From Dysgonomonas sp. ZJ279 (GTDB taxonomy: Bacteria > Bacteroidota > Bacteroidia > Bacteroidales > Dysgonomonadaceae): a stretch of 64,000 bases of DNA. A program made the translations under genes and the position numbers. Positions 13,788 to 38,458 of this stretch are shown here, piece by piece. Below the pieces are notes generated by a model. It did not search any database. It was not told where the DNA came from and saw nothing but the letters and a program-made list of their open reading frames with translations. The stretch spans positions 62,001 to 126,000 of the forward strand of contig NZ_JAAKEL010000006.1 in the NCBI RefSeq assembly GCF_011039205.1. Reading direction: 5' to 3'. The number at the start of each line of letters is the position of its first letter. Position 1 is the stretch's first letter.

Positions 13788-13822
13788 ATGATTCTATTTT
13801 AAACAACTAATTAGTTTGATTA

Positions 13823-15406: not shown

Positions 15407-15517
15407 TGTATCTAATTTTAAGGTTAACAACAGTCGTTTGCAACTTAAGAAAAAACGATCCGGATAAAATGATAAGTCTTGTTCCCCTCTAAAGAAGATA
15501 ACAGGAACTTTTCAGAT

Positions 15518-17728: not shown

Positions 17729-17821
17729 TAATAGTTAATAAGAGAGTGATTCTCTTTTTATTTTCAATTTATAATTAATTACCGTAAAACCGGCTATTCC
17801 ATAAAAATAAAATATCGTAGC

Positions 17822-21533: not shown

Positions 21534-21571
21534 TGTTAATCGTATTAAATAATTAAATAATTCTGAATAGC

Positions 21572-24500
21572 TTAGAAACTTACATTGAGACCAAATACAT
21601 ACATTTTTGTAGGAGGATACCAATCACCTGTTTCAGGGTCATAACCGTTATAATTAGTTATACAGAATAGATTCGAACCTGTTGTGTATACGCGCAGATT
21701 ACTTAATTTCAATTTGCTCACTATATTAGCAGGCAGAGTATATGCTAAAGTTAAGGCCGACATTCTCAAGAAAGATGCCTTCTGAACACTAAAATCCATC
21801 TGGCTTGCATTATAATGGTTATAATCAAAACCAGTCAATACGCGAGGGAATTTAGCATCTTTATTCTCAGGACTCCATCTGTCGAGTAAATCAAGAGAAG
21901 CTGCACTGCTGCCAACACTGGTAATTAAAGATTCGTAATAAGGACTTAGTTTTCTAGCACCCTGAGAATAGTTAAAAACAGCATTCAAGGCAATGCCTTT
22001 CCACTCGAAGTCAGTAGCAAAACCGCCATAAAATTTCGGGTCGGTAGAGCCTATTACCACACGGTCATTTTGATCTATCGAATTGTCTCCATTCGTATCC
22101 ACCGGATATAAATCTCCTGCACCTACGTTGTAGCCATTGAAATTTATCTTACTTAATCCATCTAAGTCGACAGCCTGAGCAATGCCACCTGTCTGCCAGA
22201 CATAGATCGTATTTCTGGATTCGCCTAAAAATAGGTTACCTTCTTTTTCAATATTACGATTACCATCTACTTTATAAATTACATTATTCTCACCATATAA
22301 TTGTGTGATCTTGTTCTTATCGGCAGATAGGTTAGCAGACAAATTCCATTTAAAATCTTTTGAATCGATAACACTTGCACTCACTGTGAATTCAACGCCC
22401 TTGTTTTCGATTGCTCCTATATTTACAAAAGCTTTCTTAAACCCTGATGTAACAGGCAAGGTACGCTCCATTAACAAGTCTTTATTCTTGATAAAAAATG
22501 CGTCCGCAGTAAAATGGATGCGATTCTTTAAGAATGCCAGATCGATACCAATATTTAATTGTTTTTGTTTCTCCCACGTAATATCTTCGGTTCCTCTACG
22601 GTCATTAGAAACAAAAGAAACCTGATTATTACTCACATTCGGACTATAGAGGCTACGAAATGCAAAATCATCTATATTCTGATTACCCACTATTCCATAA
22701 CCAACCCTCAATTTTAATTGATCGAGAGCTGTCTGATCTTTCATAAATGATTCTTCAGCAATATTCCATGCTCCCGAGAATGAAGGGAAAACACCCCACT
22801 GATGTCCTTCAGCAAATTTGGAAGAACCATCATATCTGGCAGTCGCAGTCAAATAATACCTATTATCATAGCTATAGTTAGCTCGTATAAGATACGACAT
22901 CAAAGTAGCAGTTGTGAAATTAGAACCGATCTCTCTTTCTGCTTTTTTATAAGAACTGCCTAAGTTGTGATAATTTATATAATCTGTTCCGAAACCCTTT
23001 CCATTCGCTTCGGTATAATCATAGTCAGTGCGGGTACTACTTGTACCTAGTATACCGTTAAATTTATGTTTTCCGATAGAAGTATCGTAAGAAACTGTAT
23101 TATCCCATTGCCACATAGTACGCGATTCACGTTTATGCTTTGCTTCTCCATCCAATGAGTAACGAATAGATTCATATATGTTTTTAGGTGTATATTTAAA
23201 TTCTTTATGTTCAGAATAATCCAAAGAGAATGAAGTTCTGATATTCAATCCCTGTATCGGGTTTATATTCACGTAATTTGCTGTAAGAATACGATTTCTG
23301 ACACGATCGTTATCAACTGTCAAAGAGCGGATAGGATTGAAATTATTCTGATCGAATATACCTTGATAGTTCAATGTTTCTATGTTTTCGTCGATAGCCA
23401 ACATCGGATTGGCATTACGTGCCCTATTCATCACTCCATCATCTACCAATTGATCTTTTGTACGTGAAAATGAAGTATTAGTACCCACCTTCAGCCAAGG
23501 CTTAATATTTTGCTCTGCATTAATACGGCCGGTATATTTACTTTGACCCGATTTTTTCATCAAACCTTTCTGATCTGAATAACCGAAACTCAAATAATAT
23601 GTTCCTTTGTCGGAACCACCGGAAAAACTTAAAGCATGATTCTGGTAAGTACCTGTACGGGTTACCTGATCGAGCCAGTCATAATTATCATTATTTTTAT
23701 ATGCTTCAAATTCATAATCGGCAAATACCCTGTTAGAACCCATCACTACATCATTGATATATTGATTTACATTTCCATTAGGATTGGTTACCGAATATCC
23801 ATTCACATAAGCATCTTTTCTTAACTCGAATAATTGTCGTGTATCCATCGTCTTGGGAACTTTGGCAAAATTCTGAACGCCAAACCATGTGTCATAATTT
23901 ACTCTACCCTCACCATTTCTTCCTCTTTTGGTAGTAATCAAAACCACGCCATTAGCTCCACGAGAACCATACAGTGCAGTAGCAGAAGCATCTTTCAATA
24001 TTTCGACAGAAGCTACATCATCCACATTCACTGCATTAAATCCCGAAGCATAATTATCCACCACCAAACCATCTACTACATAAATAGGGTCTGTTGATGT
24101 ATTTATAGTATTTATACCACGAATTTTGATAGATGCATCATCTCCCGGACGAGTACCATTTGAAATCAATACTCCGGCTACACGTCCCTGAAGTGCCTGA
24201 TTAATTGTAGTAACCGGCTTCTCGGTCAGTACAGCGGAATTTACACTACTGACTGCCCCTGTCAGATCGCTCTTTTTCATCACGGCACCGACTATAACCA
24301 CATCGTCCATCTCAAAATTATGAGGTGTAAGACTAATATTGAGTACAGGCCCCACTGCTCTTACTTCTCTGGTTTCGTAACCTAGGAATGAAACTGTCAA
24401 TGTTTGATTTTGTGAAACTGAAATAGAATATTTACCATCGACATCAGACAGTGTACCTGTGGTTGTACCTTTTACCACAACAGATGCTCCTATTATCGAT

Positions 24501-24634
24501 TCTTTTGTCTCTCCATCGGTTATAAGCCCTGTAATAGTTACATTCTGGGCAAAAGCAATGGCTCCCGACAAGCAGAACAGCATCAATATAAATGCCGCCC
24601 TCAGTTTGAAATTAATGTTCATACACTTTTTCAT
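21572..24634 (-). CDS. SusC/RagA-family TonB-dependent outer-membrane transporter
   Basis: A 1020-residue TonB-linked barrel that imports oligosaccharides with its SusD partner. A signal peptide (ends near AIAFAQ) is followed by the carboxypeptidase-regulatory-like beta-sandwich domain (about residues 32-110, ITGLITDGETKESIIGASV), the plug domain with GRVAGVLIS and DDASIKIRGI, and ALYGSRGANGVVLITTKRG, all typical. The C-terminal barrel ends VFGLNVSF with the terminal Phe expected for outer-membrane insertion. No extra N-terminal signalling domain is present, so control is expected through the neighbouring HTCS rather than an anti-sigma route. It is first in a six-gene operon. Confidence 0.96.
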   Translation of the reverse strand: MKKCMNINFKLRAAFILMLFCLSGAIAFAQNVTITGLITDGETKESIIGASVVVKGTTTGTLSDVDGKYSISVSQNQTLTVSFLGYETREVRAVGPVLNISLTPHNFEMDDVVIVGAVMKKSDLTGAVSSVNSAVLTEKPVTTINQALQGRVAGVLISNGTRPGDDASIKIRGINTINTSTDPIYVVDGLVVDNYASGFNAVNVDDVASVEILKDASATALYGSRGANGVVLITTKRGRNGEGRVNYDTWFGVQNFAKVPKTMDTRQLFELRKDAYVNGYSVTNPNGNVNQYINDVVMGSNRVFADYEFEAYKNNDNYDWLDQVTRTGTYQNHALSFSGGSDKGTYYLSFGYSDQKGLMKKSGQSKYTGRINAEQNIKPWLKVGTNTSFSRTKDQLVDDGVMNRARNANPMLAIDENIETLNYQGIFDQNNFNPIRSLTVDNDRVRNRILTANYVNINPIQGLNIRTSFSLDYSEHKEFKYTPKNIYESIRYSLDGEAKHKRESRTMWQWDNTVSYDTSIGKHKFNGILGTSSTRTDYDYTEANGKGFGTDYINYHNLGSSYKKAEREIGSNFTTATLMSYLIRANYSYDNRYYLTATARYDGSSKFAEGHQWGVFPSFSGAWNIAEESFMKDQTALDQLKLRVGYGIVGNQNIDDFAFRSLYSPNVSNNQVSFVSNDRRGTEDITWEKQKQLNIGIDLAFLKNRIHFTADAFFIKNKDLLMERTLPVTSGFKKAFVNIGAIENKGVEFTVSASVIDSKDFKWNLSANLSADKNKITQLYGENNVIYKVDGNRNIEKEGNLFLGESRNTIYVWQTGGIAQAVDLDGLSKINFNGYNVGAGDLYPVDTNGDNSIDQNDRVVIGSTDPKFYGGFATDFEWKGIALNAVFNYSQGARKLSPYYESLITSVGSSAASLDLLDRWSPENKDAKFPRVLTGFDYNHYNASQMDFSVQKASFLRMSALTLAYTLPANIVSKLKLSNLRVYTTGSNLFCITNYNGYDPETGDWYPPTKMYVFGLNVSF

Positions 24635-24810
24635 AAATTAGTCGTTTGAGGTTTATAGATTTAGGGTGTTAATACTAACCTGCTACTCAGCAACAGGTTA
24701 ATTCAATTCAAGGTTTAATGCTATTTTCAAGGGGTCTTAAAACGTATTTTTCATGGGTTTTCCATTCGTACCAGATTCTTTTACTCCAATCTTTATTATT
24801 AAATGAGACC
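24635..24810 (-). promoter_or_regulatory. Long susC leader with a hairpin
   Basis: If transcription starts about seven bases after the -7-like box at 24817-24824, the susC messenger has a leader of about 175 bases. It contains a 7-bp perfect stem (24676-24682 with 24694-24700) around an 11-base loop. No open frame of note is present. Long leaders on susC genes are known targets of post-transcriptional control in Bacteroides; a role here is inference. Confidence 0.4.
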
Positions 24811-24816
24811 AGAGCG

Positions 24817-24824
24817 TAAATTTA
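24817..24824 (-). promoter_or_regulatory. -7-like box of the susC operon
   Basis: TAAATTTA on the minus strand differs from TAnnTTTG by the last base. It lies 14 bases from the 41-bp operator, the same distance as the equivalent box in front of the MFS gene, and the bases around it (AAATCTAAwTTTAC) are shared by the two promoters. A weak box next to an operator fits an activator-dependent promoter. Confidence 0.55.
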
Positions 24825-24838
24825 GATTTTATATATCC

Positions 24839-24879
24839 ATTAAAAATGTAAGTACTTTCTGAAAACATGTAAAATTTTA
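24839..24879 (-). promoter_or_regulatory. Putative HTCS operator upstream of susC
   Basis: A 41-bp segment that is 37/41 identical to 37150-37190 upstream of the MFS operon. On the plus strand it holds two ATGTAA half-sites at 24846 and 24867, exactly 21 bp apart and in direct orientation, the arrangement bound by AraC-type domains. It lies 205-245 bases upstream of susC and 14 bases from a -7-like box. Binding by the adjacent hybrid two-component regulator is inferred, not shown. Confidence 0.7.
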
Positions 24880-25059
24880 TTATTTTTCCTATTTTACTTC
24901 AATGGCATTAAAAGGTTATGCGACAAATATAATTTTAAGATTCAGTAACAAGAATTACCATCTTTTCAAAAAATAACAAATTTGTCGCAACACTATATTT
25001 TAACTTCAAAATGCGACCTTTGTATTATTTATTACGACATGTGTGATTTATATATTATG

Positions 25060-25067
25060 TATATTTG
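25060..25067 (+). promoter_or_regulatory. -7 box for the HTCS gene
   Basis: TATATTTG matches TAnnTTTG, 31 bases before the ATG at 25099. Its presence inside the longer TTG-initiated frame supports the start at 25099. Confidence 0.55.
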
Positions 25068-25098
25068 TTACTCTACTACCTATAAAGTCGCCTTATCT

Positions 25099-28000
25099 AT
25101 GAATCGTATTTTTTTTCTATTCATTTTCTTATTTCTATTCTCTACTTGTACCCTTGCTTCTGATTATTACTTCTCGATAATCGATGGAAAGGCCGGATTA
25201 TCTCAGAACAACGTTAAATCGATCTGTCAGGACAGCTATGGATTCATGTGGTTTGGTACGCGCAACCGATTAAATCGTTATGATGGAATATCCTTTAAAG
25301 TATTCGATTGCTACGATCAGATAACCAAAAAGGGAAATAACAACATCGGTGCAATATGTGAAGATTCTGATAAGAAACTCTGGCTAGGAACAGATAAAGG
25401 TGTCTTTATATTCGATCCGATTACCGAGCGATTTAAGTCGTTCGACATAACTACTGCAAACAAAATAATCATAGACGAATGGGTTGCAGACATTAAGCAG
25501 GATCAGAATAATAATATATGGATAGTTGTACCTAATCAAGGTGTATTCAAATATGAAATGTTATCCGGAGAACTCGTGTTGTACTCTGTAGTAGAAGAAC
25601 TCAAACCGAGTGTGAGTAATCCCCAATGTATTGCAATAGAAAACAATGGCAGAGTGTGGATCGGCTCCAACGGATCAGGCGTATTCTTGTACGATAATTT
25701 GAAAGATACATTTACACAGTATTTAGGTAATGAAAATGGCAGATTGACTTTAGCCGGAAAAAACATTTATACTATCTGTCATAATAATGATAATATAATA
25801 ATCGGTATACACGAAGAGAAATTGTTGAAACTCGACAAACGAAGAAATATACTGCAAGAGGTAAATGCACCTGAAATCAACAATAAAATAATCAGGCATA
25901 TCGCAATTTTCAACGATGACGAGATATGGGTCGGAACTCAATCCGGTTTATATATTGTAAACGAAAAATTGCAGAGAGTAGACCATATAATGGAAGATCC
26001 GCTTAACAGCCATTCTCTGTCTGACAACTTCGTAGAAAAAATATATAAGGACAGGGAAGGAGGAATATGGCTGGGCACAAACTTTGCCGGTGTCAATTAC
26101 CTTCCCAACAGGAATAATAAGTTTGAAAAGTATTTTCCTGTTAGCGAGAAAGGTTCTATTAATTCGAAACGAATCCGGGAAATGAAAGAGGATAAAGACG
26201 GAAATATCTGGATTGGCACCGAAGACGCTGGCCTATCTATATTCGATCCACAGAAAAAAACATTTAACCCGATAACTAATTTATTTTACAATAGAATACT
26301 AGCTCTTTTAGTTCAGGATTCAAAAGTTTGGGTCGGTTTTTTCAAAAACGGATTAGATATAGTTAATCTCCCACAAGATAAAGTGCAGCATTATTCTCTT
26401 TCGGATATGGGGCTTAATGAAGAAAGTATATATGCATTGTGTGAAGACCGATATGGGAAAATATGGTTAGGTAATGCCTGGGGAGTTTTTGTCGCCGACA
26501 AGAATGACATGAAATTTAAGCATATGGATGCTTTTGGGTTGTGCTACACTTATGATTTAATGGAAGATTCCGAAGGTTATATCTGGGTTGCTACGATGGG
26601 CAGCGGAGTTTTTCAATATGATCAGAAACAAGGAGTTCTTATTCATCATACGGCAAAAGGCGAAAATCATCTGAGTTCCAATTCTGTAAGCGGCATTACA
26701 GAAGACCATCTGGGACAAATATGGTTTTCGACCGACAGAGGTGGAATATGTGTATATAATAAAAAAAGCAAGAGTTTTAAAAGCTACTCGATAAAAGACG
26801 GGCTGCCTGATGATGTAGCCTACAAAATTCTGGAGGATAAAAATTATGATTTATGGTTTGGTACAAATCTCGGATTAGTACGATTTAATCCTGAGACCGA
26901 GCAAGTAAAAGTTTTTACTCAAAACGAAGGTCTATTGTCTAATCAATTCAATTATAAATCCAGTTTAGTAAGCAGCTCCGGCAAATTGTATTTTGGCTGC
27001 ATGGAGGGTTTGATCGCTTTCAAACCGGAAGAATTTAAGCAAAATGAATTCATTCCACCAGTATATATAACCAAGTTATCGATATTCAACAAAGAAATAG
27101 TCCCTAATGCCGATGGATCTCCTCTGCAGAAAAGTATTATTCATACAGACCGAATAGAACTACCATTCAATCAAGCCAATATCATCCTCGATTTCGTATC
27201 GTTGAGCTATACTGCACCTCAAGCAAATATGTATGCGTATAAAATGGAAAATATAGATGCTGACTGGATATACACTAATAATAATCATAGTGCCTCTTAT
27301 GCCAAATTACCTCCCGGGAAATATATATTTAAAGTGAAAGGGACTAATAACGACGGACTATGGAGTGGCGGAGAAACATTGCTCGAGATAGAAATACTAC
27401 CCCCATGGTGGGCATCTAATATTGCATATTTTGTATATCTTGTTTTGTTTATCAGCATATGTTATTTTGGCTTAAAGATATCGCTGAAAAAATACAGAAA
27501 GAGAAGTAATGAGAAACAAAAATTATTTGAGATAGAAAAAGAAAGAGAACTCTATGAGGCAAAAGTAGACTTCTTTACCGATATAGCTCATGAAATAAGA
27601 ACTCCTGTGACGCTCATCAATGGTCCGTTAGAATCCATCATGGAAATGGATATCACAGACCCTAATATTAAGCGCAACCTAAAAATCATAGAGCAAAATA
27701 CGAACCATTTACTTCATCTCATCAATCAGCTCCTGGATTTCAGAAAAGTAGATAGTCGAAAATTTTCGTTGAACCTGAGAAGTACAGATATAAACGAACT
27801 ATTGAAAACTGTTATTTCACGGTTTCAGCAGCAATCGGTTTCTTCTAAGAAAACAATTAAAGTACATCCGTTTCCCGAGGAACACATTTCAGCTATCGCT
27901 GACAGGGATTGCTTAGACAAAGTATTAAACAATTTGCTGTCTAACGCCATAAAATATTCTGAGCATCTCATTGAGATATTCCTATCTGAAGACGAAACCT

Positions 28001-29076
28001 ATTTTACAGTAGAAGTTTCGAATGACGGGATTTTAATACCGGAAGAGCTGAAGGAGAAAATATTTGAACCTTTCTTTCAGGTAAAATCAGATCGTCGCGA
28101 AACATCAGGTTCAGGTATTGGTCTTTCTCTGGCTCGTTCTTTAACAGAACTTCATAATGGCTATCTATTCTATACATCACAATCAGGGCTAAATACCTTT
28201 ATGCTCAAAGTCCCTCTTCAGCAGGAATTGGCAACAAATGGAACAGATACTATAAATATAGACAGGGCATCCGATTATATTGTAGAAAATGAAACTAACT
28301 CTGCAAAGAAGAAACATTTAGAATCAATATTGGTAGTTGAAGACAATACGGATATGTTACAATTTATTGCAGACAAGTTGAAAGAAAATTACGTTGTAGA
28401 ATGTGCGTCTAATGGACTTAAAGCTCAGGAAATACTGAAACAGAAAAGTATCGACATTGTTATAAGTGATGTTATGATGCCCGAAATGAATGGCTTCGAG
28501 TTATGCAATTTTATCAAATCAAATATGGAGTACAGCCATATTATTGTAATACTATTAACTGCAAAAAATGACTTGAACAGTAAAATTAAAGGATTGGAAA
28601 TCGGTGCTGATGCTTATGTAGAAAAACCTTTCTCGTTCCAGTATTTGCAAACATTGCTCGTATCTCTCATGAATAATAGAAAGCGCGAAATAGAGTTGTT
28701 CCTGAAAAAGCCTTTTCTACCTATGCAGCAATCGGGAATCAACAAAGCCGATGAAGAATTTCTGACAAAAATCATATCAATTATAAACGAAAACATTACC
28801 GATTCTAATTTCAATGTGGAGAGCCTAGCCGATTTAGTTTATATGAGTCGCTCCAGCCTTCATCGCAAATTGAAAGTAATGATCGACTCTACACCAACTG
28901 ATTTCATAAGATTAGTGCGTCTACAAAAAGCAGCACAATTGATACAGGAAGGAAAATACAGGATAAATGAGATTTGTTATTTAGTAGGAATTAATTCATC
29001 CTCTTATTTTATTAAATTATTCCAAAGCCAGTACGGAATGACTCCAAAAGAATTCGAGAAACAGAATAAAGAATAA
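25099..29076 (+). CDS. Hybrid two-component system regulator (HTCS)
   Basis: A 1325-residue one-protein two-component system of the type that controls polysaccharide-utilisation loci in Bacteroidota. The start at 25099 gives a signal/anchor sequence and follows a promoter box. Order: periplasmic two-bladed-propeller sensor with repeated Reg_prop motifs (for example IWLGT and LWFGT, residues about 25-660), Y_Y_Y domain, membrane helix at about 775-797, HisKA with phospho-acceptor His about 830 in AHEIRTP, HATPase with NLLSNAIKYS about 947, receiver domain with Asp about 1124 in VISDVMMPEMNG, and an AraC-type helix-turn-helix from about 1215 to the end. All phospho-transfer residues are kept. 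It lies between the two operons carrying the shared 41-bp site and probably activates both on binding an oligosaccharide. Confidence 0.96.
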   Translation: MNRIFFLFIFLFLFSTCTLASDYYFSIIDGKAGLSQNNVKSICQDSYGFMWFGTRNRLNRYDGISFKVFDCYDQITKKGNNNIGAICEDSDKKLWLGTDKGVFIFDPITERFKSFDITTANKIIIDEWVADIKQDQNNNIWIVVPNQGVFKYEMLSGELVLYSVVEELKPSVSNPQCIAIENNGRVWIGSNGSGVFLYDNLKDTFTQYLGNENGRLTLAGKNIYTICHNNDNIIIGIHEEKLLKLDKRRNILQEVNAPEINNKIIRHIAIFNDDEIWVGTQSGLYIVNEKLQRVDHIMEDPLNSHSLSDNFVEKIYKDREGGIWLGTNFAGVNYLPNRNNKFEKYFPVSEKGSINSKRIREMKEDKDGNIWIGTEDAGLSIFDPQKKTFNPITNLFYNRILALLVQDSKVWVGFFKNGLDIVNLPQDKVQHYSLSDMGLNEESIYALCEDRYGKIWLGNAWGVFVADKNDMKFKHMDAFGLCYTYDLMEDSEGYIWVATMGSGVFQYDQKQGVLIHHTAKGENHLSSNSVSGITEDHLGQIWFSTDRGGICVYNKKSKSFKSYSIKDGLPDDVAYKILEDKNYDLWFGTNLGLVRFNPETEQVKVFTQNEGLLSNQFNYKSSLVSSSGKLYFGCMEGLIAFKPEEFKQNEFIPPVYITKLSIFNKEIVPNADGSPLQKSIIHTDRIELPFNQANIILDFVSLSYTAPQANMYAYKMENIDADWIYTNNNHSASYAKLPPGKYIFKVKGTNNDGLWSGGETLLEIEILPPWWASNIAYFVYLVLFISICYFGLKISLKKYRKRSNEKQKLFEIEKERELYEAKVDFFTDIAHEIRTPVTLINGPLESIMEMDITDPNIKRNLKIIEQNTNHLLHLINQLLDFRKVDSRKFSLNLRSTDINELLKTVISRFQQQSVSSKKTIKVHPFPEEHISAIADRDCLDKVLNNLLSNAIKYSEHLIEIFLSEDETYFTVEVSNDGILIPEELKEKIFEPFFQVKSDRRETSGSGIGLSLARSLTELHNGYLFYTSQSGLNTFMLKVPLQQELATNGTDTINIDRASDYIVENETNSAKKKHLESILVVEDNTDMLQFIADKLKENYVVECASNGLKAQEILKQKSIDIVISDVMMPEMNGFELCNFIKSNMEYSHIIVILLTAKNDLNSKIKGLEIGADAYVEKPFSFQYLQTLLVSLMNNRKREIELFLKKPFLPMQQSGINKADEEFLTKIISIINENITDSNFNVESLADLVYMSRSSLHRKLKVMIDSTPTDFIRLVRLQKAAQLIQEGKYRINEICYLVGINSSSYFIKLFQSQYGMTPKEFEKQNKE

Positions 29077-29078
29077 TC

Positions 29079-30092
29079 TTATTTTGAGGGCTTACAACTA
29101 AATTTGAATCTTATAAAATCTGATTTTTCCTCATTTGCAGTAAGAATATTTGTTTCAAAACAAGGATGATTTACACCATCAGGATGATATTGAGCCTCGA
29201 GGCATATTCCACCAAAAGGCACAAAATTCCCCTCTAAAAAATCGCCTGTATAAATTTGAATACCGGGCATGGATGTATATACATCAACAATCCGCCCGGA
29301 TACTTTTTCCCTGAGCGATGCTATTGGAGTAGCTGTGTCGGGGTCTTTTATGAAATATGCGTTATACCCTTTTAGATTGTCTTTTTTAAGTTGAGCCATT
29401 TTACCGATGGGCTTATATTCTCTGAAGTCAAAAGCTGAATTCGTTACCGAACAAATCTTGCCGATGGGTAGAAACTCATCATTCATCTCAAGATATTGCG
29501 TTGCATTCACTTGAAGTTCATGATCCAGAATATCATTATTTTGAATGTTAAGGTTGAAGTAGCTGTGATTGGTGAAATTCACAGGTGTTGCTTTATCCGA
29601 CAAGGCTTTATATTCGATACTCAATTCATTATTGTCAGAGAAAAAATAAGTAACTGATAATTTCAGATTACCGGAAAATCCGCCCTCTCCATCAGGACTT
29701 TCGATATAGAATATTACATTATTCTCATTGATTCTATAATCAAATATCTTTGTATTGAAACCATTATATCCTCCGTGGTTGGAATTTTGTCCGTCATTTC
29801 TATCTGTCTGATATGTCTGTCCATTCAGTGTAAATCGTCCGTTAGATATTCGATTGGCATAACGACCGATAGTAGAACCTAAATAGAACATATCACAAAA
29901 GTAATCTTCCAGATTATTATAGCTTAGAATAACATTCTTTCCTACCCCTTCTTTATTCGGAACGACGATGGAAACGATAGATGCACCATAATTACTTATT
30001 TCTATATATGAACCGGAAGTATTTGTCAAGCGTAGCAAGATTACCTCCTTTTGCTTATAGGTAACAGACTGTTGTATAGAAATTTTAGTCAT
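29079..30092 (-). CDS. galM: Aldose 1-epimerase (galactose mutarotase)
   Basis: A 337-residue enzyme that interconverts alpha and beta anomers of galactose and other aldoses before the Leloir pathway. No signal peptide, so cytoplasmic. Motifs: STIGRYANRIS near residue 75, the catalytic His in FTNHSYFNL near 174, and the catalytic Glu in GGICLEAQYHPDGVNH near 305. It is the last gene of the MFS operon, 41 bases after GH36. Its stop codon is only 2 bases from that of the convergent HTCS gene. Its presence supports galactose as the released sugar. Confidence 0.93.
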   Translation of the reverse strand: MTKISIQQSVTYKQKEVILLRLTNTSGSYIEISNYGASIVSIVVPNKEGVGKNVILSYNNLEDYFCDMFYLGSTIGRYANRISNGRFTLNGQTYQTDRNDGQNSNHGGYNGFNTKIFDYRINENNVIFYIESPDGEGGFSGNLKLSVTYFFSDNNELSIEYKALSDKATPVNFTNHSYFNLNIQNNDILDHELQVNATQYLEMNDEFLPIGKICSVTNSAFDFREYKPIGKMAQLKKDNLKGYNAYFIKDPDTATPIASLREKVSGRIVDVYTSMPGIQIYTGDFLEGNFVPFGGICLEAQYHPDGVNHPCFETNILTANEEKSDFIRFKFSCKPSK

Positions 30093-30133
30093 AGTGCATC
30101 TATTTGTGTTTGTTTTCAGTCAGAATAAATTTG

Positions 30134-32314
30134 CTATTTTATACTATTAAGTTGAAGAAGAACGCTCTCATATTCATTATATATAGGGAATGTAAGACCT
30201 ACAGTCATCAGATAATCACCACTGAATGGCTTATTCTCGTAAGCAGCCGCTCTCGACCAATTAGGAGATACCTTATTAATTTCTTTCAGTGTGTATGTCT
30301 TGTTGGGATCGAGACCTTTCAAATAGATTGTTTGCTTATCTGATTTCAATTCTTTTCTTACAAGAAAATTGAAAACAATAGCTTCGTCTTTATTTTCATT
30401 AACATACATGAAGACAGTACGATTGTTTTTGTATGGTGAGAGGATTCTATACAGATCGCCATGAAGAACAGTTTTACGTATTTGCTTATATGTCTCTATT
30501 GCATTTTTCGAGAATATTTTTTCTTCATCCGTCATTTGTACAGGCTGTAAATCCATGCCTAATTTGCCTGCCATAGCAATGTCGAAACGATATTTAAGTG
30601 GGGTACTGCGTCCCGAAATATGATTGGGTGATACCGAAACATGACTTGCAAGACCAATAGTAGGGAAGAAATACTGCGCACCCCATTGAGTAAATATGCG
30701 TTGTAATGGATCGTTATTGTCACTGATCCAATATTCATCGAAATGTTTCATTGTGCCATAGTCGATGCGACCGCCACCGCCCGAGCAAGCCATAAAGGTT
30801 ACATCTGGGTATTTTGCACTTACTTTATCCATTACTTCCAGTAAGGCTAAACTATAATCTATCCAAAGGTGCGATTGCTTATCAGCCGGCAAGTAAGATG
30901 ATCCCGAATTTTGAACAAAACGGTTACAATCCCATTTCACATAGTCGATACCCGGATTCTTTTGTAATATTTCGTCAATTGTATTATAAACAAACTCTTT
31001 TACTTTCGGATTACTCATATCCAAAATCAACTGATTACGTTGAGGAGTCCTTTCTCTGTGAGGTTGAGCGATAACCCAATCGGGATGTTTTTCGTATAAT
31101 TCACTCTTCGGATTTACCATTTCGGGTTCTACCCAGATTCCGAATTTCAGACCTCTTTTTTTACACTCTTCTATCAGATAAGGGATACCTCTTGGTAATT
31201 TCTTGGTGTTGGTTTGCCAATCGCCTAATCCGGCTGTATCTCCATTTCTCGGATATTTATTACCGAACCAGCCATCATCGAGTAAGAATAGTTCGAATCC
31301 CATTTTAGACGCATCGTCAATGATTTGGGTTAGTTTCGGTTCGTCAAAATCGAAGTATGTCGCTTCCCAGTTATTCAGTAAAATACTTCTCTCTTTATCT
31401 CCGTTTTTTATACCGTATTTTCTAGCCCAACGGTGAAAGTTACGGGTAATCTTTCCTGTACCTTCATTACTATATGTGTAGAGCAGAGCAGGAGTTTTGA
31501 AAATTTTGTCTTTATCGAGTGTATAGGTTGAGGCATAAGGATTTATTCCTGACAAAACACGTAGTTTCTGATCGTTATCCACTTCGAAACAGAATTGGAA
31601 GTTACCAGGCCACGCTAATGTGCCACCAATCACTTCGCCATTCGATTCCTCCACAGGATTACCTAACGAGAGCAGAAAACAAGGATGGGTATATTGGTTA
31701 GATCTTACCCCTAATTTGGTATCTATGATTTTAATACCGGAAGTTAGCTCTTGCTCTGCGATATTCATCTCTTCCGACCAGTCACCATAAAATTGGCTTA
31801 CATAGTATTTCTTTGCATAAAAAGACAGATCGGCAGACGCAAAATTATTAAGAATAACAGGTTTGTTTTCGCCGTTTCTTATTTCTGTCCATTGTTCTAT
31901 AATGTCTTCTTTTTGGTAAGCATTGTAATGCAGATCGACATACAAACCATAATATTCATCTTTCAAAGAGATTACAGTATGAAAAATATTAGTGTCTTTA
32001 CGATCTGTTTTAGTCGATACGTATCCTAATTCGGTCGATGTGTTCCCATCGGCATGGGTCATTCTTAATGCAGCTTCGAACACATGGGTTGTTCCGAATG
32101 TGGAATAGGCACTAAAACTCTTCAAAGGAACTGCCTCTAATTCGTTGAGCTGTTTTATCTTTTTACCGAAATAAACTTGTTCGAGCCTGTTTTGGTCGTT
32201 AACCTGTAACAGCAAGCATGTATTATCCGTTGTTATCGGAATGTAATTTGCGGCAAGCAGACTCGTAGAGGCTACCAGAAACAGAGCGATCAATAAATAC
32301 TTTTGTAATTGCAT
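30134..32314 (-). CDS. GH36 alpha-galactosidase (transporter operon copy)
   Basis: A 726-residue enzyme with a signal peptide (LIALFLVASTSLLAA) and the same layout as the GH36 in the susC operon. The TIM barrel has LLDDGWFG, the nucleophile Asp near residue 462 in KWDCNRF, the CSGGGGR loop and the acid/base Asp in WISDNND. The two copies share long aligned stretches but differ enough to be old paralogues. The signal peptide places it in the periplasm although it is encoded with an inner-membrane porter and a cytoplasmic epimerase. It probably finishes alpha-galactoside hydrolysis just before uptake. It lies 24 bases after the DUF5107 gene. Confidence 0.94.
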   Translation of the reverse strand: MQLQKYLLIALFLVASTSLLAANYIPITTDNTCLLLQVNDQNRLEQVYFGKKIKQLNELEAVPLKSFSAYSTFGTTHVFEAALRMTHADGNTSTELGYVSTKTDRKDTNIFHTVISLKDEYYGLYVDLHYNAYQKEDIIEQWTEIRNGENKPVILNNFASADLSFYAKKYYVSQFYGDWSEEMNIAEQELTSGIKIIDTKLGVRSNQYTHPCFLLSLGNPVEESNGEVIGGTLAWPGNFQFCFEVDNDQKLRVLSGINPYASTYTLDKDKIFKTPALLYTYSNEGTGKITRNFHRWARKYGIKNGDKERSILLNNWEATYFDFDEPKLTQIIDDASKMGFELFLLDDGWFGNKYPRNGDTAGLGDWQTNTKKLPRGIPYLIEECKKRGLKFGIWVEPEMVNPKSELYEKHPDWVIAQPHRERTPQRNQLILDMSNPKVKEFVYNTIDEILQKNPGIDYVKWDCNRFVQNSGSSYLPADKQSHLWIDYSLALLEVMDKVSAKYPDVTFMACSGGGGRIDYGTMKHFDEYWISDNNDPLQRIFTQWGAQYFFPTIGLASHVSVSPNHISGRSTPLKYRFDIAMAGKLGMDLQPVQMTDEEKIFSKNAIETYKQIRKTVLHGDLYRILSPYKNNRTVFMYVNENKDEAIVFNFLVRKELKSDKQTIYLKGLDPNKTYTLKEINKVSPNWSRAAAYENKPFSGDYLMTVGLTFPIYNEYESVLLQLNSIK

Positions 32315-32338
32315 GGTATTATGATTTTTGTTTTAATA

Positions 32339-35300
32339 TTAAATGCTATTCAGTATCAAGTGGCTATCCAAATGGTTTATATCCAATTGTTTCACTTTTA
32401 TAAGATATTCCTTGGCTTCATTCAGATTTCCTAATCCCAGATTCCCCAATCCCATAACATAGTAGCAATGTATCTGATTGCGAATATTCAGATCGTCTTC
32501 CCAAATGGCAAGATCGGGTAATGATACAGCAAAATAATCGATACGGCAGTTGTCGAAAAGATGCTTCTTTCCGTGATCTATCAACTTGTTGTAACGGCTC
32601 TTTGCTTTATCTGTATTGCCTAATGCAGCCCAAGCCAATCCTTGATAATATATTTTGTCGGGTTGCTGGTCATTATAGAAAAATGCCTGTTGAGGTTCGG
32701 GCGAACCGATAGTTGCTTTTTGTAAATGGAACATTGCTTTTTGCTCGTTTCCAACGCCTTTGTAAGCTAATCCTTTGTAATAATCAATATCGTTTTCTTC
32801 CGCATTAGATAGCTTACCTTCGCCTAGATTGTGAGGATAATAATCTGTCTCGTGAAGTAGCCTGAGTGCTTCTTGAAATTCATTACCTTTCATAGCTTGT
32901 TTGGCTAATTCGATGCGGCAGACAGTATATTGCTTTGCTATTTTACCTTCGCCACCTTCCCACGGATGGAACTTGTAGTCAGTAATCAGATTCATAGCCT
33001 CTTTGTATCGTCCTAGCTGATTGTATAATGTGATCCGTTCTATACAAAGATCATCACGTTCTTCGACTAATGACGCATATTTTTCGAGAAAAGCTAAACG
33101 TTCATCAGGCGAGACACCTCTTTTTTTATACAACTGATCCAATTCCATTAATATACGTGAATCAGTCATATCCAGAGCAAATGCCTTTTCCAATAATTCT
33201 TTAGCCTCTTCTTTGCGATTGTATTTATTGTAATAGGCTAATGCCAGATTGCGAAGCACTGTAGGATATTTATTGTTTAATTGCTGCGATCTTTCCCAAC
33301 ATATCACAGCGTCATCGTATTGACGTGCCGCATACCAGAAGTTACCCAGATAGTATGGAGCTAAGGAGTCTTCGGGGTTTAGCCTCATGGCTTCTTGTAG
33401 TATATTTACTTCTTCTATCCGATTGGGGAAGCATCTGTCGGGCGACATTTTAGAAGCTTTTATGTAATATTCTTTAGCTTCGGTAGCTTTACCCATTTTA
33501 GAAGAGAAATAACCCAGTATATAATATACCATCGGATACACCTTGTTTTCGTCGGTGATGCAGCATGATAATAATCGAGTTGCCTCTTCATATAGTCCTG
33601 CACCTGCAAAATCGAGCGCGTATTCTATATATGGATGAGTGGAGCCGTGCATCAGGTTTTTTAATATTTCTATATCTCTAATATCATTCGTTAGAAGATA
33701 TTTTTCGAATCGGCATCCGATATTGAACTTATCGATTTTCAAAGAATCTTCGATTAAATCCATCGCGTCGTCTTTTCTTCCCAGCTTTCTTAGTATAGAA
33801 GCCTTTAGCTGGCGTGCTTTATGATTGTGCCAATTCCGTATCAAACTGCGATCTATTCTCTCTAAAGCCTCTTCCCACAATCCTCTTTCGGCATCTATTT
33901 GTGCCAAAGCATAATATCCCGAATCTTGCCATGCGGCATTCCATGTCGCTTTAAAGAATGCACCGTAAGCATCATCCTTACGACCTTGCATATTTAGACA
34001 CCATCCCAGATTATAATTTGGTTCACCATCGTAAGGATTCGGATTGCGCTCTGTTTGCGTTTCTACTGCTTTGCGGAAAAAGGGTTCGGCTTTAGCGAAT
34101 TGCCCCCGACGCATTAAAATAAGTCCCATTGCATTATTACAGCGGATATCTTTCGGCTCACGGCTAAGAGCTTCTGTATAAAAATCTATCGGGTTATAGG
34201 TCGCATGACGATATTGTTCCAAATGCTGACCCGTAAGGAACAGTTGCTCTATGGATGCAATTTCTTTCGGTTCTTTAGCCGCTTTGGCAGGATCAGGAGT
34301 CGGCTTTATTTCGGGTTTGTCTGCCTTATATGTCAATAGCTCGTTTCCATCGGATGTATAGAGATTGAATATTAAATTTTCGGGAGTTATATTTCCTACC
34401 TCTACCGTGTTGAAGTAAGAATGCAAAGGTGAGGTATTTGCATAACTATCTAAATAAACTTTTCCATCGGTGTTCTTTAATACAATGTGTAGATTCTGAA
34501 ACTCGGAAGTTGTGTAAAGAATAATACTTGCCTGTCCCTCTTTTACATCTATATTTACGATTGCATCTTTATTCGCATTTTTCACATAGCCTACCTCTGC
34601 ATAGGGCATAAAGTATTGCACCCACGATTTTTCTTCATTGGGTTGCAGCCATGTAAAATCAGGTTGATTGTCGGTATATACTCCTGTCATTAATTCTATG
34701 TATGGCCCGTCTTCATCGGTTAGATTCCGATCCCAGGCAATACCGAAGTCACCATTGCCCCATGTCCACTGTTTTTTACCGGGAGATATATGGTGATTGG
34801 CAACGTGCAATAAACCACCTTTCACATCTTCTTCATATCCTCCTACAAAATTGAATTTGGACTGTATAGCCATATAAGAGGTCGGTACAGGAACATTTTT
34901 ATACTTCGAAATATCTACTCCTGCCGAATAATCCTGTTTGTAATATGTGCCTGTTGCTATCGGAAAATTTGATACATCACGCTTACCGTGATCAAACACA
35001 GCATGGACATCGGGCGGAAACACCGAGTGATAATGATCGTTTACCACAACAGCAGGGTTAGCCCACCATAGGAATGTCTGAGGAAAGGCAGTACGGTTAT
35101 ACACTTTTACAGTTATTTCGACATATGCTTTTCCGGGACGAAGCGTAAATCCCTGCATGCCTTTTGTTCGGAACATGCGTTCCACCTCGTTGCACCAGAC
35201 AGTCATACTGCCATCTGCATTTTTTTCGATATAATAATCCGTAGGCAGAAAGGTACTCGGGCGATGATGCTGAGGCCAGTTGAACTCTATACCTCCCGAA

Positions 35301-35677
35301 ATCCACGGACCGGTAAGACCTACCAATGCGGGCTTAATCACCTGATTATAATATACAAAGTGGCGTTGCTTAACCTTATCGTAAGCCATTTGAATGCGTC
35401 CGCCCAATTCGGGAAGGATCATTACTTTTAGATATTCGTTTTCGATAAATAAAGCCTTGTATTGCTTGTCTTTCTTCTCATCAGAAACCTTTTCTACCAC
35501 AGGATAGGGATATACGGCTCCCGAACTTCCCTGATAAACTCTTTTCTCGAGGAATATCGGGTTTTTCTCTTCTTCTCCTATTTCGTATGTAGGGAGCATG
35601 ATGTTTTCTTCCCATGCTTTTACTACATTTTTTTCATTCACAGTGGATCGAATCAGATAATCAGTTATCTCTTCCAT
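32339..35677 (-). CDS. DUF5107 and tetratricopeptide-repeat protein
   Basis: A protein of 1112 residues from the ATG at 35677; a longer frame to 35830 would overlap the MFS gene and has a basic, low-quality N-terminus. The first 350 residues match DUF5107 in character: a mutarotase/beta-sandwich-like fold with ILPELGGRIQMAYD, GPWISGGIEFNWPQHH and WTWGNGDFGIAWDRN. The remainder is a long series of TPR helix pairs (for example GLILMRRGQFAKAEPFFRKA). No signal peptide, so cytoplasmic. Such proteins recur beside sugar porters and glycosidases in Bacteroidota, but I know of no established activity. The fold, with carbohydrate-enzyme-like GGIEFNWP, makes a sugar-binding or catalytic role on imported oligosaccharides plausible; the TPR tail could bind partners. 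Confidence 0.88.
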   Translation of the reverse strand: MEEITDYLIRSTVNEKNVVKAWEENIMLPTYEIGEEEKNPIFLEKRVYQGSSGAVYPYPVVEKVSDEKKDKQYKALFIENEYLKVMILPELGGRIQMAYDKVKQRHFVYYNQVIKPALVGLTGPWISGGIEFNWPQHHRPSTFLPTDYYIEKNADGSMTVWCNEVERMFRTKGMQGFTLRPGKAYVEITVKVYNRTAFPQTFLWWANPAVVVNDHYHSVFPPDVHAVFDHGKRDVSNFPIATGTYYKQDYSAGVDISKYKNVPVPTSYMAIQSKFNFVGGYEEDVKGGLLHVANHHISPGKKQWTWGNGDFGIAWDRNLTDEDGPYIELMTGVYTDNQPDFTWLQPNEEKSWVQYFMPYAEVGYVKNANKDAIVNIDVKEGQASIILYTTSEFQNLHIVLKNTDGKVYLDSYANTSPLHSYFNTVEVGNITPENLIFNLYTSDGNELLTYKADKPEIKPTPDPAKAAKEPKEIASIEQLFLTGQHLEQYRHATYNPIDFYTEALSREPKDIRCNNAMGLILMRRGQFAKAEPFFRKAVETQTERNPNPYDGEPNYNLGWCLNMQGRKDDAYGAFFKATWNAAWQDSGYYALAQIDAERGLWEEALERIDRSLIRNWHNHKARQLKASILRKLGRKDDAMDLIEDSLKIDKFNIGCRFEKYLLTNDIRDIEILKNLMHGSTHPYIEYALDFAGAGLYEEATRLLSCCITDENKVYPMVYYILGYFSSKMGKATEAKEYYIKASKMSPDRCFPNRIEEVNILQEAMRLNPEDSLAPYYLGNFWYAARQYDDAVICWERSQQLNNKYPTVLRNLALAYYNKYNRKEEAKELLEKAFALDMTDSRILMELDQLYKKRGVSPDERLAFLEKYASLVEERDDLCIERITLYNQLGRYKEAMNLITDYKFHPWEGGEGKIAKQYTVCRIELAKQAMKGNEFQEALRLLHETDYYPHNLGEGKLSNAEENDIDYYKGLAYKGVGNEQKAMFHLQKATIGSPEPQQAFFYNDQQPDKIYYQGLAWAALGNTDKAKSRYNKLIDHGKKHLFDNCRIDYFAVSLPDLAIWEDDLNIRNQIHCYYVMGLGNLGLGNLNEAKEYLIKVKQLDINHLDSHLILNSI

Positions 35678-35729
35678 TACGTTTTTACCTTTTGAGTTAA
35701 ATATTATACGATTTAAGGTTGCACCTTTA

Positions 35730-37100
35730 TTATTTAGTAAGTTCTTTTTCAATTTCTTCGAGTGATTTACCTTTTGTTTCGGGTAAATTCTTTTTGACAA
35801 ATACAAATCCCAAGAGACAGATAATGCCATATAGCCAGAATGTGCCGTAAGAACCTAGTCTGCTGTTTAATAATGGAAATGTATATGTCAGTATAAAACA
35901 TGCCGTCCATAACGAGAATGTGGCAATTGCCATCGCCATCCCTCTTATGCGTGTAGGGAATATTTCGGAAATAACTACCCATGTGATAGGCGCCAGAGTC
36001 ATCGCGTAGCAGCCAATAGCAAGCATCACTAAAACCAGAACAGATAAGCCCGACACCTCTAAATAGTAGCAAGTGCCTAATGCCGCATAAATACAGGCTA
36101 AGCCTATTGCCCCGAAAAGCAACAAAGAGCGTCGTCCTAATCTGTCTACGGTGTACATTCCTACGATAGTGAAAACAACATTTGTTACACCTGTTATAAC
36201 GATATTGAAAAGAATATCGGAAACACCATATCCTGCAGCCATAAATATTTCCTGTGCATAATTAAATATTACATTAATTCCGCACCATTGCTGGAAGGCT
36301 GCGATAACGATTCCGATGAGTAATATTTTAGGCATTTTCCCTTTAAAGAGTAATTTATAGTTCACCTTTTCTTTACTATTATCAGCAATCTCTTTCATAG
36401 AACTCATTTCGGTTCTGGCATAGTCACCTCCTCCGATACGGGTAAGTATTATCTGTGATTTTTCTATCTTCATTTTGGTATAGAGCCAACGTGGACTCTC
36501 GGGTATAATAAATATCAATATAAAGAAAAAGATTGCGGGAACCCCTCCTGCCCAAAACATCCATCTCCATCCCATCTGTCCGTTCCACGAATTGAGGATA
36601 TCTTCTCCGGGAGCGACAGAATCGGCAATAAGCCAGTTTACAAGTTGTGCCGCAAGTATTCCAATAACAACTGTCAATTGGTTAAGTGCTACGAATTTGC
36701 CCCTGACATTCGTTGGCGCAACTTCGGCGATGTACATGGGCGACAGGTTGGATGCCATACCGATGCCAATTCCTCCAAATATACGATAGATAATAAACCA
36801 GGTGAGCGTATCGCTGACACCTGTGCCTACGGCTGCGATGATAAATACCAACGAGGCTATTATCATTAGCGGCTTTCTTCCGTAGCGATCCGAAAGGCTA
36901 CCCGAAACCATAACTCCCAACAAGCAACCTAATATGGCACTCCCCATAACCCAACCTTGTATATAAGGTGAGTCTGCAATATTGAAATATAATTCATAAA
37001 ATGGCTTTGCTCCTCCGATTACAACCCAGTCGTAACCAAATAATAAGCCTCCCATTGCTGAGACAAAAGTGATAAGTAATAAATAGCGGCTATTTTTCAT
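35730..37100 (-). CDS. MFS sugar porter (XylE/GalP-type, sugar:H+ symporter family)
   Basis: A 456-residue inner-membrane protein with 12 predicted helices. Sugar-porter signatures: GGLLFGYDWVVIGG in helix 1, SDRYGRKP between helices 2 and 3, PESPRWLY after helix 6, DRLGRRS between 8 and 9, and PETKGKSLEEIE at the end. The helix 1 motif normally reads GYDxxVIxGA and is kept in outline. It probably brings galactose or another hexose or pentose into the cytoplasm. It is first in a four-gene operon with DUF5107/TPR, GH36 and aldose epimerase. Its promoter carries the 41-bp site shared with susC. Confidence 0.94.
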   Translation of the reverse strand: MKNSRYLLLITFVSAMGGLLFGYDWVVIGGAKPFYELYFNIADSPYIQGWVMGSAILGCLLGVMVSGSLSDRYGRKPLMIIASLVFIIAAVGTGVSDTLTWFIIYRIFGGIGIGMASNLSPMYIAEVAPTNVRGKFVALNQLTVVIGILAAQLVNWLIADSVAPGEDILNSWNGQMGWRWMFWAGGVPAIFFFILIFIIPESPRWLYTKMKIEKSQIILTRIGGGDYARTEMSSMKEIADNSKEKVNYKLLFKGKMPKILLIGIVIAAFQQWCGINVIFNYAQEIFMAAGYGVSDILFNIVITGVTNVVFTIVGMYTVDRLGRRSLLLFGAIGLACIYAALGTCYYLEVSGLSVLVLVMLAIGCYAMTLAPITWVVISEIFPTRIRGMAMAIATFSLWTACFILTYTFPLLNSRLGSYGTFWLYGIICLLGFVFVKKNLPETKGKSLEEIEKELTK

Positions 37101-37127
37101 ATTAGATTTTTATAGGTTATCTGAATG

Positions 37128-37135
37128 TAAAATTA
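37128..37135 (-). promoter_or_regulatory. -7-like box of the MFS operon
   Basis: TAATTTTA on the minus strand, 14 bases from the 41-bp operator and about 28 bases from the MFS start codon. Context AAATCTAATTTTAC matches the susC promoter context. Confidence 0.55.
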
Positions 37136-37149
37136 GATTTAAAGTATTT

Positions 37150-37190
37150 ATTAAAAATGTATGTTCTTTTTGAAAACATGTAAAATATTA
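37150..37190 (-). promoter_or_regulatory. Putative HTCS operator upstream of the MFS operon
   Basis: 37/41 identical to 24839-24879, same orientation relative to its gene and same distance to the -7-like box. Half-sites ATGTAT at 37157 and ATGTAA at 37178 are 21 bp apart. Identity continues at a lower level (20 of 30) through the promoter toward the gene. Bound regulator inferred to be the HTCS; the divergent AraC protein is an alternative. Confidence 0.7.
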
Positions 37191-37533
37191 CGATTTACTC
37201 TACTTGTCGTTTCAATCAGAAGCATTCCCTCTCAATTCGTAGTATAATGATGTGTCTTTTCTTTAAAACCAGAGCGAAATAGCATAAATATTAAGTAAAT
37301 ATTTTTTATAAACTTCCGGTTTGGTCTTTTGTAAGAATTGATTTTTTATCTGCATTTATCTATATCAAAAATATTCTATTATTCGCTAATAAACAGGTAC
37401 ATAAAAAGCAATAAATATAATACATGTCCTAATTTCATAAGGAATAGGCATGCATGCGACATTTGTACTACTTTTTGATACACATATTTTCTAAAATATA
37501 ATTCATCTATAGGGCTATATTTCAGATCAATTG
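37191..37533. other. Rest of the MFS/AraC divergent intergenic region
   Basis: About 340 AT-rich bases between the operator and the AraC promoter box. No open frame, RNA gene or strong hairpin recognised. A copy of ACCAGAGCG (37268) also occurs next to the susC promoter but in a different relative position. Confidence 0.4.
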
Positions 37534-37570: not shown

Positions 37571-38458
37571 ATGGAAAACACAGAAACAATTGCCAATGGG
37601 TTCAAAGGAGAAAAAGCCATTGTAACACCCTACAACACAAGAGAGTATCAAGAGGCAAACCCAATAACAGAACCTCTATATCTGACTCACATAGGCTATT
37701 ATCCCAATGCGAAGTTTCATTTCAGACAACGAATATCGGGAGCCAACGAAAACATCCTTATATATTGCGAGAAAGGAAAAGGGTGGATAGAACACGGTGG
37801 GGAAAGATTTTACTTATCGAATAATCAGGTATATATTATCCCTGCAAATGAACCCCATACCTACGGAGCAGACATACGCAATCCGTGGAGTATATATTGG
37901 CTGCATTTTCAAGGAAAAAACGTACCGATGTTTAATTCGATCATAGGTAAGGTCCTTTCAATAAAAGAATCGGACAATAGCAGATATAAAGACCGTATGC
38001 TACTTTTTGAGGATATGTATCAGAATCTGGAGATGGGGTACAATCCTGAAAATCTGGAATACATAAGCTTTTGCCTGAGATATTTCTTAGCGTCGCTAAA
38101 ATATTTGACACAGTATAGAGTAATAAAAAATATAAGGGTTGACGATGTAGTGCAGCAAAGCATTCACTTCATGAAAGACAATCTCGAAAATAAAATAACA
38201 CTGAATGATATAGCCAATGCCGTAGGCTATTCAAGCTCACATCTGATTACTCTTTTTACTCAGAAAACATCCTATCCTCCTATGATATACTATAATCAAT
38301 TGAGAATACAACGCGCATGTTCGTACCTGCAGTTTTCTGAATTGAAGATAAAAGAGATTGCTTTCAGATTATGTTTCTATGATCCTTTTCATTTCTCTAA
38401 AGCTTTTTTAAAAGAGATGCGTATTACACCGAAAGAATATAGAAAACGGTATCAATAA
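37571..38458 (+). CDS. AraC-family transcriptional regulator with cupin sensor domain
   Basis: A 295-residue cytoplasmic regulator. The N-terminal half is the cupin-like AraC sugar-sensing domain (ILIYCEKGKGWIEHGG, then VYIIPANEPHTYGAD, about residues 60-105). The C-terminal 100 residues hold two helix-turn-helix motifs: ITLNDIANAVGYSSSHLITLF and the signature IKEIAFRLCFYDPFHFSKAFLKEMRITPKEYRK. It is divergently transcribed from the MFS operon, so it may regulate that operon together with the HTCS, responding to a free sugar in the cytoplasm. It ends at a strong terminator. Confidence 0.93.
   Translation: MENTETIANGFKGEKAIVTPYNTREYQEANPITEPLYLTHIGYYPNAKFHFRQRISGANENILIYCEKGKGWIEHGGERFYLSNNQVYIIPANEPHTYGADIRNPWSIYWLHFQGKNVPMFNSIIGKVLSIKESDNSRYKDRMLLFEDMYQNLEMGYNPENLEYISFCLRYFLASLKYLTQYRVIKNIRVDDVVQQSIHFMKDNLENKITLNDIANAVGYSSSHLITLFTQKTSYPPMIYYNQLRIQRACSYLQFSELKIKEIAFRLCFYDPFHFSKAFLKEMRITPKEYRKRYQ

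Follow-up and report, generated by a model that had tools for sequence, protein, structure and literature searches.

A direct-repeat operator shared by a SusC/SusD operon and a sugar porter operon of Dysgonomonas is predicted to be bound by an AraC-type regulator

Two operons that share an almost identical operator raise the question of which regulator acts on it, in particular when two candidates with the same type of DNA-binding domain are encoded next to them. This is the situation in a stretch of 64,000 nucleotides from Dysgonomonas sp. ZJ279 (contig NZ_JAAKEL010000006.1, positions 62,001 to 126,000), called here the window. One copy of the element, which we name M1, lies between a susC-like gene on the minus strand and the gene of a hybrid two-component system (HTCS); the other lies between a major facilitator superfamily (MFS) gene on the minus strand and an araC-type gene on the plus strand. 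The initial annotation of this DNA had proposed that the HTCS acts on both sites, so that one sensor would govern capture and uptake as a single regulon. The shared operator, and probably the single regulon, are retained here on the sequence. The choice of regulator is not: M1 tracks the araC-type gene, and the comparative evidence favours the divergent AraC protein, which that annotation had itself named as the outcome that would refute it. We consider it very likely that the binder of M1, predicted to be an activator operator, is the AraC-family protein encoded at 37571–38458 (plus strand, divergent from the MFS gene), a proposal based on Pfam and NCBIfam domains, orthologs and co-occurrence. 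This corrects an assignment by proximity: M1 is probably bound not by the closest sensor but by another regulator, which shares the DNA-binding domain type and has a compatible 21-bp geometry.

A pattern scan and the M1 model locate operator A upstream of susC at 24839..24885 (minus strand, core 24842-24871) and operator B between the MFS operon and the araC-type gene at 37150..37196 (minus strand, core 37153-37182). Segments 24839-24879 and 37150-37190 are identical at 37 of 41 positions, and the adjoining 30 bases toward the genes at 20 of 30; both figures of the initial annotation were exact on recount. This is the best ungapped 41-base match between the two intergenic regions, and 300 first-order Markov resamplings of these regions gave a maximum of 31/41 (mean 25.7). 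When the window was searched with exact 10-mer seeds, two other direct pairs reached at least 33/41, both within paralogous GH36 coding regions, and no inverted pair did. Across the 4.10-Mb genome, a 37-base pattern with up to 3 mismatches found exactly the two window sites. With a model trained without them, they score 67.3 and 66.2, and the next-best window position scores 2.8.

The layout of M1 is AAANATGTA-N12-AAANATGTA, a direct repeat with a half-site distance of 21 bp. Read in the direction of the promoter, each window site is TACATNTTT-N12-TACATTTTT, then 17 nt, then a -7-like box, TAAATTTAC for the presumed susC promoter (24816..24824, minus strand) or TAATTTTAC for the presumed promoter of the MFS operon (37127..37135, minus strand), the 17 nt being counted from the proximal half-site. 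Transcription is predicted to begin near 24810 and 37121, respectively. The half-site spacing, the identical orientation of both sites relative to their own target genes, and the equal 14-base distance from each 41-mer to its box (gaps 24825-24838 and 37136-37149) had all been noted before and were confirmed. The window boxes TAAATTTA and TAATTTTA carry 5 of the 6 fixed letters of TAnnTTTG, the -7 element of Bacteroidota sigma-ABfr promoters, which also have TTTG near -33 (PMC7366714). The gap between half-site and box is 17 nt in 12 of 15 listed sites and 18 nt in the other three (G012, G196, G378; genomes are designated by G numbers). It is also 17 nt at the GH36 site of G003, and 18 nt at the G303 site, where the box TATCTTTG matches TAnnTTTG fully. 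The distal flank of M1 (24872-24887 and 37183-37198), which faces away from the target, is conserved as well, with the Dysgonomonas consensus AAATATTACTATTTT; it may represent a second helix-turn-helix (HTH) contact or a divergent promoter.

We examined 25 Dysgonomonas genomes for both regulators and for M1. HTCS orthologs (54-76% identity, or the genome's own) are present in 9 of them (G000, G003, G006, G007, G010, G011, G014, G017, G021), the next-best genome reaching 40%. AraC orthologs (66-80%, or own) are present in 8 (G000, G003, G006, G007, G011, G012, G017, G019), with 41% as the next-best match. The initial scan that showed the M1 pattern was made without gene context. M1 was then represented by R1, a sequence-only model of 72 columns built from 12 Dysgonomonas sites, which at E≤1e-7 gave 13 matches: three in G019, two each in G000, G003, G006 and G017, and one each in G007 and G012. 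Such strong matches occur in 7 of the 8 genomes with an AraC ortholog and in none of the 17 without (Fisher p 1.7e-5), compared with 5 of the 9 genomes with an HTCS ortholog and 2 of the 16 without (p 0.058), these p values not being corrected for the relatedness of the genomes. Seven of the 13 sites lie between MFS and AraC genes and three before susC (G000, G017, G006); the others precede a GH97-SusC-SusD cluster and a DUF5107 gene, both in G019, and a GH36 gene (G003). This last site, on C5 of G003, is the sole strong match outside the training set; it stands upstream of a GH36 alpha-galactosidase gene with the same 17-nt gap.

The initial annotation had also suggested that the motif could serve for genome-wide scanning. 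This is true of the full-length motif, which is specific. The bare half-site pattern is not: with up to 1 mismatch it gave 67 matches in the 25 genomes versus 55 for the reversed control, and therefore the 72-column model was used. Nine matches of the bare pattern had zero mismatches, and seven of these fall in loci of the proposed regulon (two in G000, two in G006, and one each in G012, G017 and G019). The other two were set aside as lying outside it, one (G002 C6, L159) with only a 36% susC segment nearby, and one (G011 C4) at the end of a GDSL-like gene, as judged from the translations. Sub-threshold matches of R1 were likewise rejected in G024 (E 2.2e-4, upstream of greA), in G004 C7 (E 0.003, among dnaA-like, RNA-binding and riboflavin-kinase-like genes by their translations) and in G415/HGC4 (E 0.006, inside a reading frame that translates as methylthiotransferase-like). 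R1 gave many further matches at E 0.01-1.

M1 and the HTCS part company at several loci. That the HTCS (25099-29076) binds M1 and controls both operons is suggested by the position of its gene, between the operons and adjoining site A, and 5 of the 7 M1 genomes also carry it. Moreover, predicted HTCS motifs are direct repeats at an average distance of 21 bp (PMC3878776). Such a repeat does not discriminate between the two proteins, because tandem AraC-type sites have a similar layout. Against HTCS binding, M1 is found without an HTCS ortholog in G019, G012, G359, G196, G289 and G378, where the best HTCS match is 29-38%; G019 and G012 have AraC orthologs (78% and 69%) and M1, yet their best HTCS matches are 38% and 32%. 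The reverse dissociation was also observed. D. macrotermitis, sp. HGC4 and D. capnocytophagoides have the HTCS (72, 71 and 59%) beside susC and no M1 at susC, and these genomes yielded no M1 match at E≤0.005 and no AraC ortholog. M1 is thus missing beside HTCS orthologs whose HTH segments are almost identical to that of the window (MSRSSLHRKLK in the window and L038, MSRSSLHRKIK in L060). A Coprobacter sp. record (L036) with a 53% HTCS showed no M1 at E≤0.01, and its AraC match is only 39%. The HTCS promoter, finally, bears another 21-bp repeat, M2, described below, found in 7 of the 9 HTCS genomes and in 0 of the 16 others. Taken together, these data make HTCS binding to M1 very unlikely, and we infer that it is the AraC-type protein which binds there.

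The loci of G006 and G010 also speak for the AraC-type protein. At G006 C44 (L149 8680-9230), the intergenic region on the susC side has kept M1, M2 and the HTCS promoter, followed by ~150 bases up to an epimerase gene; within this gap, 13 residues match the HTCS in the manner of a remnant (E 0.055). It thus appears that the HTCS gene next to susC has been deleted in this genome, and a full HTCS lies on another contig (C39), beside an unrelated gene. In Dysgonomonas sp. 521 (G007, same contig coordinates), the susC site is decayed, with a spacer 2 bases shorter (E 1.5e-4), and the AraC/MFS site is intact. G010 has kept the MFS-DUF5107 operon (84% and 81%), has no AraC ortholog (best 38%), and shows no M1 in the ~140 bases upstream of MFS, the stretch where M1 would lie and at the end of which the contig stops; because it stops there, AraC may be missing from this place owing to a gap in the assembly. 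G003 has its intact HTCS on C4 and, in addition, a second copy (58-60%) that is broken and contains a stop, at C9:247347-250093, on the contig of the AraC ortholog.

The association of M1 with AraC extends to four other genera. When 393 genomes of the order were searched, with up to 6 candidates scored in each, seven proved to have AraC relatives at E≤1e-95, five of them outside Dysgonomonas. In four of these five (G359, G196, G289 and G378, which belong to other families, AraC 53-68%), an M1 with 0-1 mismatch to the half-site pattern adjoins AraC, between this gene and MFS or DUF5107. Of the two sites in G359, one was also recovered by R1 (E 2.4e-5). In the fifth genome, G303 (AraC 65%), a weak M1 with 21-bp spacing (18.8 bits, E 0.005) was kept because it stands directly before the MFS ortholog, ~11.5 kb from AraC on the same contig; the extension to G303 is by this weak site only. 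The best HTCS identity in the five genomes is 29-41%. In G359 a second perfect half-site pair (L178 2381-2410) overlaps the start of the araC-type gene, and might be a site of negative autoregulation.

Several observations weigh against binding of M1 by the AraC-type protein at these promoters. Twelve of the 13 strong matches are R1's own training sites, and the genome scans scored the best 150 first-look candidates per genome, so that the absences counted above are not absolute. M1 correlates equally well with DUF5107 and with AraC (7/8 each); this is because the AraC gene is linked to its presumed targets. G011 has a 79% AraC ortholog and no M1 match, in a genome that is 51% complete and has a different sequence upstream of AraC. 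Compared with the bare half-site pattern, the two G003 sites have 2 (MFS) and 3 (GH36) deviating positions. Among the six susC-HTCS loci, M1 at susC is intact in two (window, L033), decayed in one (L034) and absent in three (L037, L038, L060). Outside the genus, G303 has no M1 next to AraC, and R1 missed the G196, G289 and G378 sites at E≤0.01, therefore these three rest on the pattern scan. At the promoters themselves, the final G of TAnnTTTG is an A in the window boxes, and no clear copy of the -33 TTTG was found.

Could M1 be recognised by a third, unlinked regulator that these genomes happen to share? Co-occurrence among relatives can reflect common descent, and AraC binding is a prediction. 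Yet M1 is located in AraC-MFS or AraC-DUF5107 intergenic regions in the window and in G003, G006, G007, G012, G017, G019, G359, G196, G289 and G378, and the region adjoining an araC gene is the usual place for sites of a local AraC regulator; we therefore regard a third regulator as unlikely. That the sites result from chance, or from a recent duplication of intergenic DNA devoid of function, is extremely unlikely. The window pair taken alone could be a duplication, but resampled sequences reach at most 31/41, and relatives have preserved the motif at different target genes, in the same orientation and at the same distance from the box, while the flanks diverge.

The HTCS may have an element of its own. 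M2, ACCTTTGT-N13-ACATGTGT (25016..25044, plus strand), is a 21-bp direct repeat unrelated to M1 that tracks the HTCS gene, with a -7 box, TATATTTG (25060..25067, plus strand), downstream of it and facing this gene. The form ACANNTGT-N13-ACANNTGT (0-1 mismatch) is common to all six susC-HTCS intergenic regions compared. A model from 10 training sites gave 8 matches at E≤1.5e-4, in the seven HTCS genomes mentioned above, all of them upstream of the HTCS or of its remnant (G006 C44); one (G003, E 1.5e-4) is outside the training set. The best match in genomes without the HTCS has E 4.5e-4 (G016). Of the HTCS genomes, only G011 and G014 give no match at this threshold; the HTCS of G014 starts at the edge of a contig. 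G011 and G003 have weak M2 copies, with 2 and 3 mismatches respectively, and upstream of more distant HTCSs (L036, 53%; L040-L043) M2 was not found, the best candidates there having 3-5 mismatches. The matches being confined to HTCS promoters or the remnant, M2 could be an autoregulatory site of the HTCS, or simply a conserved HTCS promoter; it is in either case a candidate element separate from M1. As an HTCS operator for susC it was set aside as unsupported, for the same reason.

A dual control was also considered, in which AraC would act at M1 on both operons and the HTCS in addition on the susC operon, through M2 or another site. This extends AraC control of M1 and proposes no alternative binder. 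A susC operon divergent from an HTCS gene is a common arrangement in polysaccharide utilization loci (PULs). The susC-HTCS pairing is kept in loci without M1 (L037, L038, L060), and M2 shares its intergenic region with the susC promoter. On the other side, M2 is oriented toward the HTCS promoter and accompanies the HTCS even where the neighbouring gene is unrelated (G006 C39), no strong M2 copy was seen at other targets, and no HTCS site for susC was identified. Dual control seems to us a plausible arrangement, though not one we would favour. Somewhat more doubtful, and offered tentatively, is the evolutionary scenario in which the PUL was first under its own HTCS and was recruited to a second regulon when its susC promoter acquired an AraC-type operator. 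Relatives show states that could be read as stages of such a capture: no site (L037, L038, L060), an intact site (window, G017), a site kept after HTCS loss (G006), and a decayed one (sp. 521). Were the recruitment true, sensors of a periplasmic oligosaccharide and of a cytoplasmic monosaccharide would form an AND/OR gate on one outer-membrane transporter.

Returning to AraC as the binder of M1, the following mechanism can be proposed. The AraC-like dimer would sense a cytoplasmic sugar via its cupin domain and bind both half-sites of the direct repeat, which at 21 bp from each other would lie on the same helical face. Situated 17 nt from a TAnnTTTR -7-like box, the promoter-proximal half-site would occupy the position of the weak -33 element, and the bound dimer would recruit RNA polymerase. 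The regulon in this genome would consist of two operons, one with SusC/SusD and glycosidases, the other with MFS, DUF5107-TPR, GH36 and aldose epimerase genes (TPR, tetratricopeptide repeat). Capture by SusC/SusD, import across the inner membrane and alpha-galactosidases appear to be brought together in a single regulon by the AraC-type regulator. The M1 targets form a coherent alpha-galactoside gene set, and for this reason we propose that the ligand is likely galactose or a related product of alpha-galactoside breakdown. A ligand of the L-arabinose type is possible, because among NCBIfam models the protein matches AraC itself best, though far below the cut-off (86.3 bits against the E. coli AraC equivalog model NF007860, whose cut-off of 208 is not reached).

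How does this system compare with known ones? E. coli AraC, MelR and RhaS combine a cupin with a double HTH and use a direct-repeat operator with half-sites about two helical turns apart near the promoter. Pseudomonas MtlR, an AraC-type activator, likewise has tandem direct repeats upstream of and close to its promoter, as 15-bp blocks at -72 to -58 and -50 to -36 (PMC4514859). M1 differs from the operators of these four proteins by its half-site TACATNTTT and the -7-like element of Bacteroidota type, and by serving a SusC/SusD PUL together with an MFS operon. For HTCSs, Ravcheev et al. 2013 predicted motifs for 16 of the 36 of B. thetaiotaomicron, all direct repeats with an average distance of 21 bp (PMC3878776), so that the earlier statement that HTCS operators are rarely spelled out was too strong. 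Electrophoretic mobility shift assays of HTCS response-regulator parts exist for two promoters (PMC11253607). The 21-bp direct-repeat layout is already published for HTCSs, and tandem repeats are known for AraC-type activators. M1 resembles the Bacteroides HTCS regulons in its repeat of ~21 bp and in the control of susCD operons, and is unlike them in following a soluble AraC-type gene and not an HTCS gene. Among those regulons, inner-membrane transporters and cytoplasmic kinases were reported for HTCS_Hep and HTCS_Fru only (PMC3878776). The PUL24/BT1871 system for raffinose-family oligosaccharides in B. thetaiotaomicron shares with the window an alpha-galactosidase in a PUL with a SusC-like transporter; unlike the window, it is controlled by an extracytoplasmic function (ECF) sigma/anti-sigma pair and BT4338, and AraC is unmentioned in the available main text (PMC11501099). 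No description of the AraC-type regulator or of the M1 motif was found in the literature searched, including the available parts of PMC3878776, PMC11501099 and PMC11300592, and a literature search on araI1/araI2 spacing gave nothing. For a soluble AraC-type regulator with relatives in several Bacteroidales families, the present analysis provides a predicted operator and the accompanying -7-like box.

The genes around the two sites were assigned by Pfam unless stated otherwise. Operon A, as inferred from strand and spacing, would begin with the SusC-like TonB-dependent transporter (21572..24634, minus strand), followed on the same strand by the SusD-like protein (19962..21623, open reading frame limits, the true start being probably internal) and by a Melibiase_C protein and GH36, GH43 and GH95 hydrolases (11367..19933). 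By the same reasoning, operon B, also on the minus strand, would comprise the MFS sugar porter of the TIGR00879 subfamily (35730..37100, Pfam and NCBIfam), the DUF5107 + TPR protein (32339..35830), a GH36 (Melibiase) protein (30134..32314) and an aldose 1-epimerase (29079..30092). The true start of the DUF5107/TPR protein is probably internal, because its orthologs begin aligning near residues 37-51; it is 69-84% identical to proteins of seven other Dysgonomonas genomes, and 7 of the 8 AraC genomes encode it.

The AraC-family protein (37571-38458) is composed of an AraC_binding cupin domain (PF02311), HTH_18 (PF12833) and, in 2 stretches, HTH_AraC (PF00165). A phmmer search found no solved structure resembling it at E≤1e-10, and all matches in a plasmid search were below 60% identity. 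The HTCS (25099..29076, plus strand), which is not the proposed M1 binder, contains Reg_prop, Y_Y_Y, HisKA, HATPase_c, Response_reg and HTH_18 domains, and probably starts at Met 25099, where a signal-peptide-like segment was recognised by eye, rather than at TTG 24982, where the frame opens. A conserved S/CHIP motif has been reported for the inhibitory contact between receiver and DNA-binding domain (PMC11253607). In the receiver of the window HTCS (open reading frame 24982-29076), SHII was seen by eye at the presumed S/CHIP position.

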